Shown: positions 1 through 26,619 of the stretch, piece after piece
Layout: each line of letters starts with the position of its first letter
Position numbering within the stretch: the first letter of the stretch is position 1
The notes under the pieces: model-generated
The model's database searches: none
What the model was told of the DNA's origin: nothing
What the model saw: only the letters and a program-made list of their open reading frames with translations
IMG/VR virus record: IMGVR_UViG_3300030090_002860
Coordinates: 1-27,219 of that record
Reading direction: 5' to 3' (one strand)
DNA length: 27,219 nt
DNA from: a virus
Translations under genes and position numbers: made by a program

Positions 1-104
1 TACCATTCACGTTCATGATCTATAACATCCTGCTGATAATGGCCCCACACATACGCCAAGTTAGGCGCAGTTTCAATGTCATAAAACAGAACCTTAGGTT
101 CCAC
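1..104 (-). CDS. DEDD-type 3'-5' exonuclease / RNase H-like protein, 5' part only
   Basis: Only the first 34 codons lie in the window; the rest continues beyond base 1. The start is taken as the GTG at 104-102, which overlaps the stop of the preceding gene (TAGTG) and has GAGG a short distance upstream. The readable N-terminus is VEPKVLFYDIETAPNLAYVW. A hydrophobic strand followed by D-I-E-T and APNLAYVWG is the exonuclease I motif seen in phage YprB/DnaQ-like RNase H-fold nucleases and in the exonuclease domain of some phage DNA polymerases. Which of these it is depends on the missing C-terminus. It follows the helicase, consistent with replication or repair. The motif is directly visible; the precise function is inferred. 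Confidence 0.6.
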   Translation of the reverse strand, partial: MEPKVLFYDIETAPNLAYVWGHYQQDVIDHEREW

Positions 105-2684: not shown

Positions 2685-3155
2685 TTATTTTCTCAAATTT
2701 TTTATATACTCCCTGGACACATTACTATCAGGTTTATGGGACAAATGATGTCGCACAATATGGCGCATCGCATCATTAGCATGACGCATACTAGGCGTAT
2801 ACAAACCCATAGCTTTTAACGGGGGGTTCTTAATAGTCTTTCCTTCCGAAGGGGACTGAGGATACAAACGTATACCCAGCCACAAATCAAACTCGACAGT
2901 AATCCAACCAATAAGATGCAAAGCATCAAACACACCAGTGTTGCCAGCTTTTAATGTCCTATCCCCAATGTAAAATGTTTCATACACAAGCTCGATAAAC
3001 TGACCCTCACAATGCCTGCGGAGCCAGTGTGCCGCATCATGAGGGCCAGAGACTTGATCATGGGCGGCTATCCAGCCATCACCAGTTTCTCTAAGGACAG
3101 CTAAGCCAGTAGTAGAACCAGGGTCTACACCAACATATGTCCTCGGTAATGTCAC
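2685..3155 (-). CDS. RuvC-like Holliday junction resolvase (156 aa)
   Basis: RNase H-fold endonuclease expected to cleave branched DNA made during phage replication or recombination. Evidence is the N-terminal strand YVGVDPGSTTGLAV with catalytic Asp 11, a central strand LVYETFYI with Glu 59, and a C-terminal HANDAMRHIVRHHL with Asp 128, which is the acidic triad of RuvC-like nucleases in phages. Length is normal for the family. The only possible start is the GTG at 3155: an in-frame TAA lies just upstream. There is no clear Shine-Dalgarno. A perfect TATAAT on the minus strand (3164-3159) ends only 3 nt before the GTG, too close to serve a leaderless start at that codon. The gene follows directly after the structured non-coding stretch. 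Confidence 0.85.
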   Translation of the reverse strand: MTLPRTYVGVDPGSTTGLAVLRETGDGWIAAHDQVSGPHDAAHWLRRHCEGQFIELVYETFYIGDRTLKAGNTGVFDALHLIGWITVEFDLWLGIRLYPQSPSEGKTIKNPPLKAMGLYTPSMRHANDAMRHIVRHHLSHKPDSNVSREYIKNLRK

Positions 3156-3177
3156 ATAATTATATTAGCGAATACCT

Positions 3178-3879
3178 GAAGTAATAGGGGACACCTCCCT
3201 GAATCCCCTTATCAGAGGCTCTGGGATCTGGTGGGACATATTCGTCAAAGACTTGTACAGTACTTTGCTTTGCCGGATACTAACCGCTAAGTTTTCACCA
3301 TGCACACTGGATGATCAATCCGTCCTTTATTACATTCCCCTATTACTTCCTTCGGCATCAGAGGACCGGAACGCTTGACATGTCCAAAGGTCCTGCGTCT
3401 TGAGCCGAAGCGATCTTAAATTTTAAATGTGAGTGTGGATCTACCATGGAAAACACCCTTATGCCACTGAAATGTGGACTTACGAGGGATTAATACATGT
3501 AACCCGTTCACAATGGCGCTTCCACCACCACCGTCCATTATGGGTAGATCTACTGTCATGCACTACAGCCGGAGGAATATTCTCATATAGGACCATCCTC
3601 TCCATCACTCAACTAGGCTCGCAGGTCGTGTCTACGTTGAGCACAAGCTTGCGACTTTACCTGGGCCTAGAACTTTTAGAGCTGTTATTTAGTCTCTCCT
3701 TACCTGTCTGCGACGACTCTCAGGGCATTGGACACACGTGATTAAGTATACTTTCCACTCCTAAACACATTTAACCTATTAAGGCACTCTATGTCGCACA
3801 ATTAGCTCGTTTACCAAGTCTACCTTGCACGACGATTTAAATGGCAGGGAAACGGAGGGAGTACAACGCTTCCCTGCCA
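3178..3879 (-). ncRNA. Candidate large structured non-coding RNA (about 700-770 nt)
   Basis: Bases 3156-3925 hold no credible gene. Read on the minus strand the stretch is dense in complementary segments: a 10-bp stem 3842-3851/3870-3879; a 9-bp stem 3793-3801/3825-3833 enclosing a smaller hairpin; nested 3613-3618/3665-3670 and 3622-3626/3659-3663; a hairpin 3572-3600 with a GAGA loop; long-range 3438-3445/3543-3550 enclosing 3475-3479/3533-3537; 3350-3356/3404-3410 enclosing a possible pseudoknot; and a perfect 14-bp helix 3178-3191/3336-3349 around a multi-hairpin domain. Several stems use G.U pairs that exist only on the minus strand. Size and phage context resemble large ornate RNAs such as GOLLD and ROOL, but no conserved motif of these could be confirmed. 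Exact ends and promoter are unknown; it may be cut out of the operon transcript. Confidence 0.7.
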
Positions 3880-3925
3880 GCCGACGGGGAAATAGAAAGG
3901 TGTAACTAAACCCGCCGACGAACAA

Positions 3926-5068
3926 CTACACTAATGCTTTAGCATGCTCAATAGCTGAATCATCAAGCGACTGAGCAACATCATTAGGTACATAATCTTT
4001 CTGCGAATACGAAGTAATAGCCTGAGCTACACCAAACGCAGTCAAATCAGTACCCATAACAAAGTCATCAAAGATACCCATAGCGACATCATCATCGAAT
4101 GCCGTCTGCAAATAAGTATTAACAACTTGAACGCCGACAGGTTTCTTCAAACCTTGAAGCTCATTCACCTTAGCCTGAATAAAATCAGGATGAGCTATCT
4201 CAACAACCTTGTCAATAGTTTCAGATGTAATCAACTCAGTAGTCGCACGTAACGTACGCTGAGAAACAACACCAGATTCTAAACTAGCACCAAGGTGAAC
4301 CTTACGATAAATATCTTCAGTCAATGTCATGCCATTATCACAAACTTTAATGATAACAGAAGGCACAAGACTGAAAGCACCAGCGCCAACCTCAGAGTTA
4401 CGTATCTCAATACCCATAAACACAATGGGGTTATCAATGCCACGATGACCAGTAAACGGTGACGTGTAATTACGCAACAATTCCTCAGCTACCACATGCA
4501 ACTGAGGTATGTTAATACGAGCACGCATTTGCGTATCGCTAACAGATGCAGGGCCAGGCTCAAAATCAATACCATGTTCTTCACGAACAGCTTTAAAACC
4601 CTCGAAAACAGCGGCAAGAATATCAAAATTCTCAATAATACTGTAACTAGGAGAAACAACAGCACGGCAAAAGAAATCTCTACCATTAGGGTCAATCAAA
4701 CCACGCAACATAACATCACGTTCTTCTACCCGATTGGTAGTATTCATAATTTCTTTAGCCAACTCAGGATAAGCATAAGTTTCATGACCAACAAGCTTAG
4801 ACATATACTTAGCTGGAACATTAAACTTATGACACCACTGACGCAAAGCATGAGGCGTCAACTCCCAATCACGAGGGGGTAAACCCACGCCTTCCGAAGT
4901 TAAAACGTCACCTATCTCAGGAGTACGAAGAAAACCAGGTACATGACTGACCAAATCCTTCGTATTCACCACAATATCGTGGCGAGCATCCCGAACAGCT
5001 GACAAATTTTCTTTCAGCTCACTAAAGGTAATATTTTTACCCCTAGTTTGCTCTATAATACTAGACAT
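3926..5068 (-). CDS. DUF932-like phage protein (380 aa)
   Basis: The start is the ATG at 5068, with AGAAAGGACAAAAT upstream; the frame stays open for 18 codons above it but these read as a lysine run through the ribosome binding site. The sequence has the usual course of DUF932 / phage-plasmid-like proteins: ELTPHALRQWCHKFNVPAKYM near residue 75-95, then LRGL..., RAVVSPSYSIIENFDILAAV, a GIEIRNSEVGAGAFSLVPSVIIKVCDNGM segment, and a helical C-terminal half. Family assignment is by pattern memory, moderately sure. Molecular role is not established; these genes usually sit with phage replication or recombination genes, as here. The gene ends immediately before the structured RNA region. Confidence 0.75.
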   Translation of the reverse strand: MSSIIEQTRGKNITFSELKENLSAVRDARHDIVVNTKDLVSHVPGFLRTPEIGDVLTSEGVGLPPRDWELTPHALRQWCHKFNVPAKYMSKLVGHETYAYPELAKEIMNTTNRVEERDVMLRGLIDPNGRDFFCRAVVSPSYSIIENFDILAAVFEGFKAVREEHGIDFEPGPASVSDTQMRARINIPQLHVVAEELLRNYTSPFTGHRGIDNPIVFMGIEIRNSEVGAGAFSLVPSVIIKVCDNGMTLTEDIYRKVHLGASLESGVVSQRTLRATTELITSETIDKVVEIAHPDFIQAKVNELQGLKKPVGVQVVNTYLQTAFDDDVAMGIFDDFVMGTDLTAFGVAQAITSYSQKDYVPNDVAQSLDDSAIEHAKALV

Positions 5069-5099
5069 ATTTTGTCCTTTCTTTTTTCTATATTTTTTC

Positions 5100-5396
5100 T
5101 TATTCTTCTTGATCATCTTCAAGAAGAACAGACCATATTAACTCAACACTAGGATTATCATCAATTTGATTGATAAAATCTATGATAGTACTGTCATTAG
5201 CTGTTTTAATTAACAAATCACGGAACATTTCACGCAATTCAACAGCTTTCCCATACGTTTTAGGCGAAACATCATCATCAGACGAAACTTTAGCAAAAAA
5301 CATAAACTGTTCCGCAAGAGCCACCTGAATAGAGATTAATTCGTCCTCAGTCAACGTAATTGAGTAATTTCCATCATTATTTATGAGCAAAACCAC
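5100..5396 (-). CDS. Acidic protein of unknown function (98 aa)
   Basis: Start GTG at 5396 with AAAGGAGAAAAT upstream. An overlapping ATG two bases earlier opens only a five-codon frame, so the GTG is chosen. The protein has a predicted strand then helices (ITLTEDELISIQVALAEQFMFF...) and a very acidic C-terminus (LLEDDQEE). No family recognised. The end lies 31 nt before the DUF932-like start, so both are probably co-transcribed. A possible promoter lies about 70 nt upstream in an AT-rich gap. Confidence 0.65.
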   Translation of the reverse strand: MVLLINNDGNYSITLTEDELISIQVALAEQFMFFAKVSSDDDVSPKTYGKAVELREMFRDLLIKTANDSTIIDFINQIDDNPSVELIWSVLLEDDQEE

Positions 5397-26473: not shown

Positions 26474-26475
26474 GA

Positions 26476-26610
26476 ATGGATATTACATTAGAAGAATTAG
26501 TAGCAGAAATGGATAAGACGTTTAACAAAGAACTAACTATCTGTGTACAGAAGCTACAGATAGCAAAACTACAGCAAATGCTTAATGACAAGCAAGAAGA
26601 AGAGGAGTAA
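26476..26610 (+). CDS. Small coiled-coil protein (44 aa)
   Basis: ATG at 26476, 2 nt after the fibre stop, with AGAAGGATAAGA upstream. One amphipathic helix (LEELVAEMDKTFNKELTICV and QKLQIAKLQQMLNDKQ) with an acidic end (EEEE). Small helical proteins of this sort after tail genes often act as assembly helpers; here no family is known. The good ribosome binding site supports it. Confidence 0.65.
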   Translation: MDITLEELVAEMDKTFNKELTICVQKLQIAKLQQMLNDKQEEEE

Positions 26611-26619
26611 CATACTCAT

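Follow-up and report, generated by a model that had tools for sequence, protein, structure and literature searches.

Does the 770-nt gap at 3156–3925 of this viral DNA encode an RNA, and if so, of what kind? We analysed the window, the whole 27,219-nt stretch that forms bases 1–27219 of the 44,003-bp virus record IMGVR_UViG_3300030090_002860 (G000). The gap, whose RNA region is called W below, lies between a gene of the phrog_1362 family and a RuvC-like gene, both on the minus strand. The first-pass annotation, made from the letters of one sequence, had proposed a large structured non-coding RNA, possibly of a new class, and covariation, conservation and synteny in six phage lineages bear this out. 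On this comparative evidence, the locus almost certainly encodes a large structured RNA on the minus strand. Most likely it represents a new family of large phage RNAs in which the folded shape is what acts, and it may function as an oligomer or as a scaffold of RNA and protein.

An RNA structure under selection at a fixed site

Relatives L002/L003 and L007/L008 were found through the upstream and RuvC-like proteins, and L041, L042 and L045 (within record G016) through alignment of the upstream protein. The order phrog_1362 gene, RNA region, RuvC-like gene, all on one strand, is kept in six of six lineages. The RNA region measures 770 nt in W, 695 nt in L002 (5198–5892), 441 nt in L008, 456 nt in L041, 484 nt in L042 and ~473 nt in G016, where it spans the contig ends and was read across the join, with a possible error there. 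The RNAs of W and L008 are 95% identical over 174 nt and 90% over 268 nt, compared with nucleotide identities outside the RNA of 81% in the segment spanning the RuvC-like gene and 70% in the upstream gene.

The RNA is present as a single copy, solely at the phrog_1362/RuvC-like locus. Nothing significant was found by blastn with the W, L008, L041 and L042 RNAs in phage and plasmid collections. Three exact RNA patterns searched in IMG/VR returned the known loci plus chance matches (L013–L016), and a pattern search of genome contigs hit a single archaeal sequence by chance (L038). Searches with RuvC brought no lineages other than L002–L008, and those with terminase led to short contigs or distant phages lacking the RNA. 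The cultured phages VanLee, Skog, Bipper and JustBecause, which carry phrog_1362 or RuvC-like homologues, have no gap of comparable size between the two genes.

The gap is free of genes, as had been claimed, with no conserved reading frame on either strand. No minus-strand open reading frame (ORF) of at least 60 aa lies within 3156–3925. The sole ORF there (3433–3741, plus strand) is matched in relatives over merely 23 and 26 codons and is therefore not conserved, and the alignment contains indels that change the length of the region between relatives. The minus strand of W folds with a minimum free energy (MFE) of -258 kcal/mol, at z = -3.8 against 20 shuffles and -3.7 against 60. It thus exceeds its shuffled controls, none of which folded as stably; the plus strand gave z = -1.65. 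Minus-strand values for L002, L008 and L042 were -6.4, -3.9 and -2.8.

The features of the RNA region, listed 5′ to 3′ along the RNA in window coordinates, are:

3880–3919, minus strand: 5′-most hairpin, in W and L002 only (MFE folds)
3842–3879, minus strand: GC-rich 13-bp hairpin after the upstream gene, either the RNA 5′ end or terminator-like (MFE folds of W and L002)
3668–3841, minus strand: module A, the 5′ core, 174 nt; 95% identical in L008, and RNA nt 136–197 in L041 at 85% (sequence comparison)
3421–3671, minus strand: optional middle part, present in W and L002/L003, absent in L007/L008 (alignment)
3425–3582, minus strand: module M, within the optional part, in common with G016 (75% over 171 columns; 94% over 88; sequence comparison)
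3349–3411, minus strand: B′, a hairpin arm immediately 5′ of module B; stem pairs in four of four lineages
3178–3350, minus strand: module B, the 3′ domain, 173 nt, with a 14-bp closing helix, a multi-branch interior domain and one long hairpin at the side (four lineages, 52 pairs)
3336–3349, minus strand: 5′ arm of the 14-bp long-range helix, pairing with 3178–3191 (columns 5–173, GC/AU; 6–172, UA/UG/CG)
3312–3317, minus strand: self-complementary loop UGAUCA (UAAUUA in L002) of a module B hairpin; candidate self-kissing loop, suggestive (alignment)
3254–3259, minus strand: loop UGUACA, self-complementary and reading UGUUAACA in L008 and L042; candidate self-kissing loop, suggestive (loop test)
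3178–3191, minus strand: 3′ arm of the 14-bp long-range helix, pairing with 3336–3349
3156–3177, minus strand: 3′ tail, reaching the RuvC-like gene and containing a TATAAT-like box (3159–3164; sequence reading)

The strongest evidence for selection on structure comes from module B, for which an alignment and consensus were made from four lineages. In the consensus, 98.1% of cells are paired, against 36–53% when it is slid. Double-sided changes that keep the pairing occur in 11 of the 52 pairs; none of 500 shuffles scored as high, and the slid controls gave 0–3. The perfect 14-bp long-range helix seen in the single sequence is real: L042 replaces G-C with A-U and U-A with C-G, two compensatory double changes, and G-U exchanges occur in relatives. 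The side hairpin of module B reads CCUCU/AGGGG in W, GUAUC/GAUAC in L002 and CCUUC/GGAGG in L008. The stem of B′ adds four double-sided pairs (CUUCGG/CCGAAG, CUUCAG/CUGAAG, CUUAUA/UAUAAG), a count that leans towards the individual folds because the B′ alignment followed them. Covarying pairs in homologues are thus clear for B and B′, and there are few for A and X, across four to six lineages.

Among the module B pairs, 12 cells are G-U and none is A-C, which marks the minus-strand transcript as the structured one. R1, a model made from B, has one match per B-bearing genome, at this locus only. The nested multi-domain folding proposed earlier is confirmed by the individual folds, the domain B consensus and the B′ alignment. 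The proposed GNRA hairpin (GGU-GAAA-ACU) was not established: a competing neighbour hairpin pairs in four of four lineages, and one lineage has a C-A mismatch. Of the candidate pseudoknot, there stands a plausible inter-domain pairing of UGUCCAR in A with UUGGACA in B′, weakly supported.

Module content of the six lineages

The RNA regions are built from modules in different orders: 5′ hairpins-A-M-B in W and L002, A-B in L008, X-A-other 3′ part in L041, hairpin-X-B in L042, and X-other-M-tail in G016, the tail being like that of L041. None of X, A, M and B is universal among the six lineages. L042 has B in common with W (83%) and X in common with L041 and G016 (89–92%), yet its RuvC-like protein is merely 65–70% identical to theirs. 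Over 88 nt, module M of W and that of G016 are 94% identical, against 55% for the upstream proteins of the two. L041 and G016 are sister phages (82% identical in RuvC and 90% in terminase) but carry unlike central RNA modules. Within M the tip arms are also replaced.

Judged from these alignments, the RNA is a newly found mosaic of modules in different combinations among related phages. The comparison of lineages shows an RNA structure under selection, at a fixed site, with module content that differs between relatives. The simplest reading is that the modules would recombine at this site, with strong selection on each; shrinkage of a larger ancestral RNA through module loss could account for some of the mosaic. 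The mosaic and the several lengths go beyond what a view of one sequence could offer. They also provide natural domain-swap variants of 441–770 nt for testing which domains are needed in folding, assembly and phage growth.

Some short motifs recur. The hairpin AUC-GUCGCA-GAU lies in module A (minus strand, ~3707–3718) and appears again in L002 only, as the replaced side hairpin of B. GUCGCA recurs in the optional middle part and is possibly a reused loop or contact motif. The internal-loop motif CCC-A-GAG facing UUC-A-GGG in module B is found in the opposite strand order in X of L041 and L042 (UUCAGGGU...AUCCUAGAG), and may be a recurring structural element.

Relation to known RNAs, function and rival explanations

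To our knowledge phages have so far yielded very few large structured RNAs, and what GOLLD and ROOL do is not settled; one more phage family, unrelated to these, would show that such large RNAs arose repeatedly. The phi29-type packaging RNA (pRNA), a phage RNA of ~174 nt, forms rings through loop-loop contacts. Module B resembles it in length (173 nt) and in its self-complementary loops, but has no Rfam match of any kind and lies at a locus away from the packaging genes.

The first-pass annotation had also raised a divergent GOLLD or ROOL, a kinship that found no support. A scan of the window and relatives with Rfam (4227 models, including group I/II introns, HEARO and OLE) gave no family at the gathering threshold and none relevant at E<=10. 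The GOLLD model RF02032 had no match at E<=10 in records G000, G001 and G002, nor did the ROOL model RF03087, which matched none of its control genomes either. No tRNA genes were found by ARAGORN in the window or in L017–L020, L051–L054 and L056–L057. A weak RsaJ match in L041 (4291–4453, minus strand; 30.5 bits against a gathering threshold of 100) is probably driven by composition.

GOLLD is a large phage RNA, commonly >800 nt, with a conserved 3′ region that contains self-interacting kissing loops and a variable 5′ region, and ROOL has a low-conservation linker between conserved parts (PMC12286853). Both assemble into cages, which kissing loops and A-minor contacts keep together (PMC12286853). 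The RNA described here is not a recognisable GOLLD or ROOL, yet is alike in size, phage setting and variable-plus-conserved layout. Like GOLLD, it has a conserved 3′ domain, B, with two self-complementary loops, in four lineages; unlike GOLLD, B is present in only four of six lineages and is replaced in L041 and G016, so there is no universal 3′ domain, and the scanned records have no tRNAs. It shares with ROOL (a 574-position model) a similar size and the phage setting, and its optional middle (3421–3671) is placed like the ROOL linker; it differs in having no tRNA island and in the variation of whole modules between relatives, beyond a linker alone. A very divergent true member of either family could draw on size, phage setting, the conserved 3′ and variable 5′ parts and the linker-like middle (compare PMC12286853), but this reading is barely credible given the two models without a match in three records (the ROOL control genomes being unmatched too) and the lack of tRNAs.

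We put at about 0.5 the probability of the following explanation as a whole: a modular structured phage RNA with exchanged modules, transcribed in the lytic phase, that acts as a shape-based oligomer or scaffold. The replication-side arm would yield a minus-strand non-coding RNA with no protein product, which would fold into closed domains (X, A, M and B′/B) whose modules are exchanged by recombination. Its synthesis would fall in the lytic phase, and the RNA would either be transcribed by itself or be processed out of the arm transcript. Its three-dimensional shape would do the work, in an oligomer of RNA alone or in a scaffold of RNA and protein, as proposed for GOLLD and ROOL. Domain B, with its two self-complementary loops, would be one core, while X, A and M would be an interchangeable periphery matched to partners in the host or the phage. 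Taken by itself, a shape-based assembly or scaffold role, argued by analogy, has close to an even chance or slightly less.

Both hairpin loops of B stay self-complementary in every B-bearing lineage despite sequence change, a precondition for a self-kissing contact. In a post hoc test against shuffled loops, the probabilities were only 0.06–0.42 each. The loops were rejected as proof of dimerisation, not being clearly above shuffles, and oligomer formation is a hypothesis at this stage. Several results weigh against the explanation above. Self-complementary 6-mers are not clearly enriched across the whole RNA (25 of 300 shuffles of W had as many), and neither a partner nor a universal module was found. 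Module B is supported by just four lineages and the other modules by three or four. L041 (z = -1.4) and G016 (z = -0.9) fold no better than shuffles, and the opposite strand of L042 also reaches z = -3.7. A bolder proposal, by analogy, is doubtful: an RNA class evolving by whole-module exchange at a fixed site that might self-assemble through its self-complementary loops into an RNA-only complex, the third phage RNA assembly besides GOLLD and ROOL.

Read from the sequence, the phrog_1362 gene of five of the six lineages, including L041, L042 and G016/L050, is followed by a GC-rich hairpin and then A/U-rich bases, with differing sequences; the hairpin is absent in L008. This hairpin looks like a terminator closing the upstream gene. 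The TATAAT-like box lies directly before the RuvC-like start in W and L008. Together, hairpin and box hint at a separate transcript for the RNA; a consensus promoter scan gave no support, finding no full sigma-70 pair at the 3′ tail. The same box hints that the RuvC-like gene has a leaderless start of its own, which tells against a cis-acting leader or attenuator of the downstream RuvC-like and helicase genes. Such a leader would fit the arrangement in all six lineages, where the RNA closely precedes the RuvC-like gene and shares its strand. The RNA is nevertheless far above the usual leader size, Rfam gave no riboswitch or leader, and a scan of the minus strand inside the RNA for terminator-like sites gave none; we regard a leader as quite improbable. 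A DNA element, such as a replication origin or packaging site with hairpins acting in single-stranded DNA, would likewise be non-coding and structured and would adjoin replication and recombination genes. It is highly improbable: the G-U cells and absent A-C cells favour the RNA strand, there is no GC-skew switch at 3.2–3.9 kb, and the modules swap too freely for an origin.

The remaining rivals concern how the modules act. They could form a cassette in which each small structured RNA (X, A, M and B, ~70–175 nt each) acts on its own; these RNAs would be transcribed jointly or singly, and phages would gain and lose them. No module being universal speaks for this, as do the self-contained B and B′ and the clean loss or joining of modules, which leaves B undisturbed (L008 lacks M, and L042 lacks A). 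All modules nevertheless share a single site, a continuous gap that no gene interrupts. Moreover, the A tail pairs with B′ in the MFE fold of L008, and the changed A tail of L041, GUGCCCAG, can pair with CUGGGCAC of X instead, pairings that suggest, thinly, that the modules fold together. On balance a cassette is unlikely, though it deserves some weight. A decoy or inhibitor RNA aimed at a defence system or host factor, its modules exchanged in the course of an arms race, partly overlaps with a scaffold and would suit the turnover of modules between close relatives at a fixed site. The modules that are present are strongly conserved (83–95%), however, unlike a typical arms-race target, and resemble no known RNA family, which makes a decoy rather improbable.

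Genome setting

The ends of G000 have ~27 nt in common, with one mismatch, and contig G001 reads across the end junction; the genome is therefore close to complete. The minus-strand gene arm runs from ~8.4 kb down through base 1 and onward to 37.8 kb. It includes an SLT-domain protein, the phrog_1362 gene, the RNA gap, the RuvC-like gene and an SNF2 helicase, and also further proteins that, from their sequence, look like recombination and replication genes. Terminase and portal are encoded in the plus-strand arm. The genes flanking the RNA are:

3926–5122, minus strand: upstream gene, phrog_1362 family, function not assigned (phrog match)
2685–3155, minus strand: downstream gene, RuvC-like resolvase, phrog_1981 (phrog match; 30% identity to annotated RuvC-like resolvases)

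The upstream gene had been labelled DUF932; it has no Pfam or NCBIfam match, and phrog_1362 replaces that label. The RuvC label holds as RuvC-like, at just 30% identity to the annotated resolvases. Relatives of phrog_1362 among cultured phages are chiefly from Mycobacterium and Gordonia phages and may hint at an actinobacterial host for the phage of the window.

Three further observations concern the genome outside the RNA. A single 2927-aa protein occupies 29028–37811 of G000, a fifth of the genome, and is 27–34% identical to relatives in more distant phages, versus ~84% or more for the terminase. A short conserved stretch between larger genes at 26474–26619 of the window reads as a small ORF (MDITLEELVAEM...) and was dropped, being probably a missed small gene. 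Finally, window positions 1–98 match G016 2713–2810 over 98 bp at 88% identity, above that of the surrounding genes.
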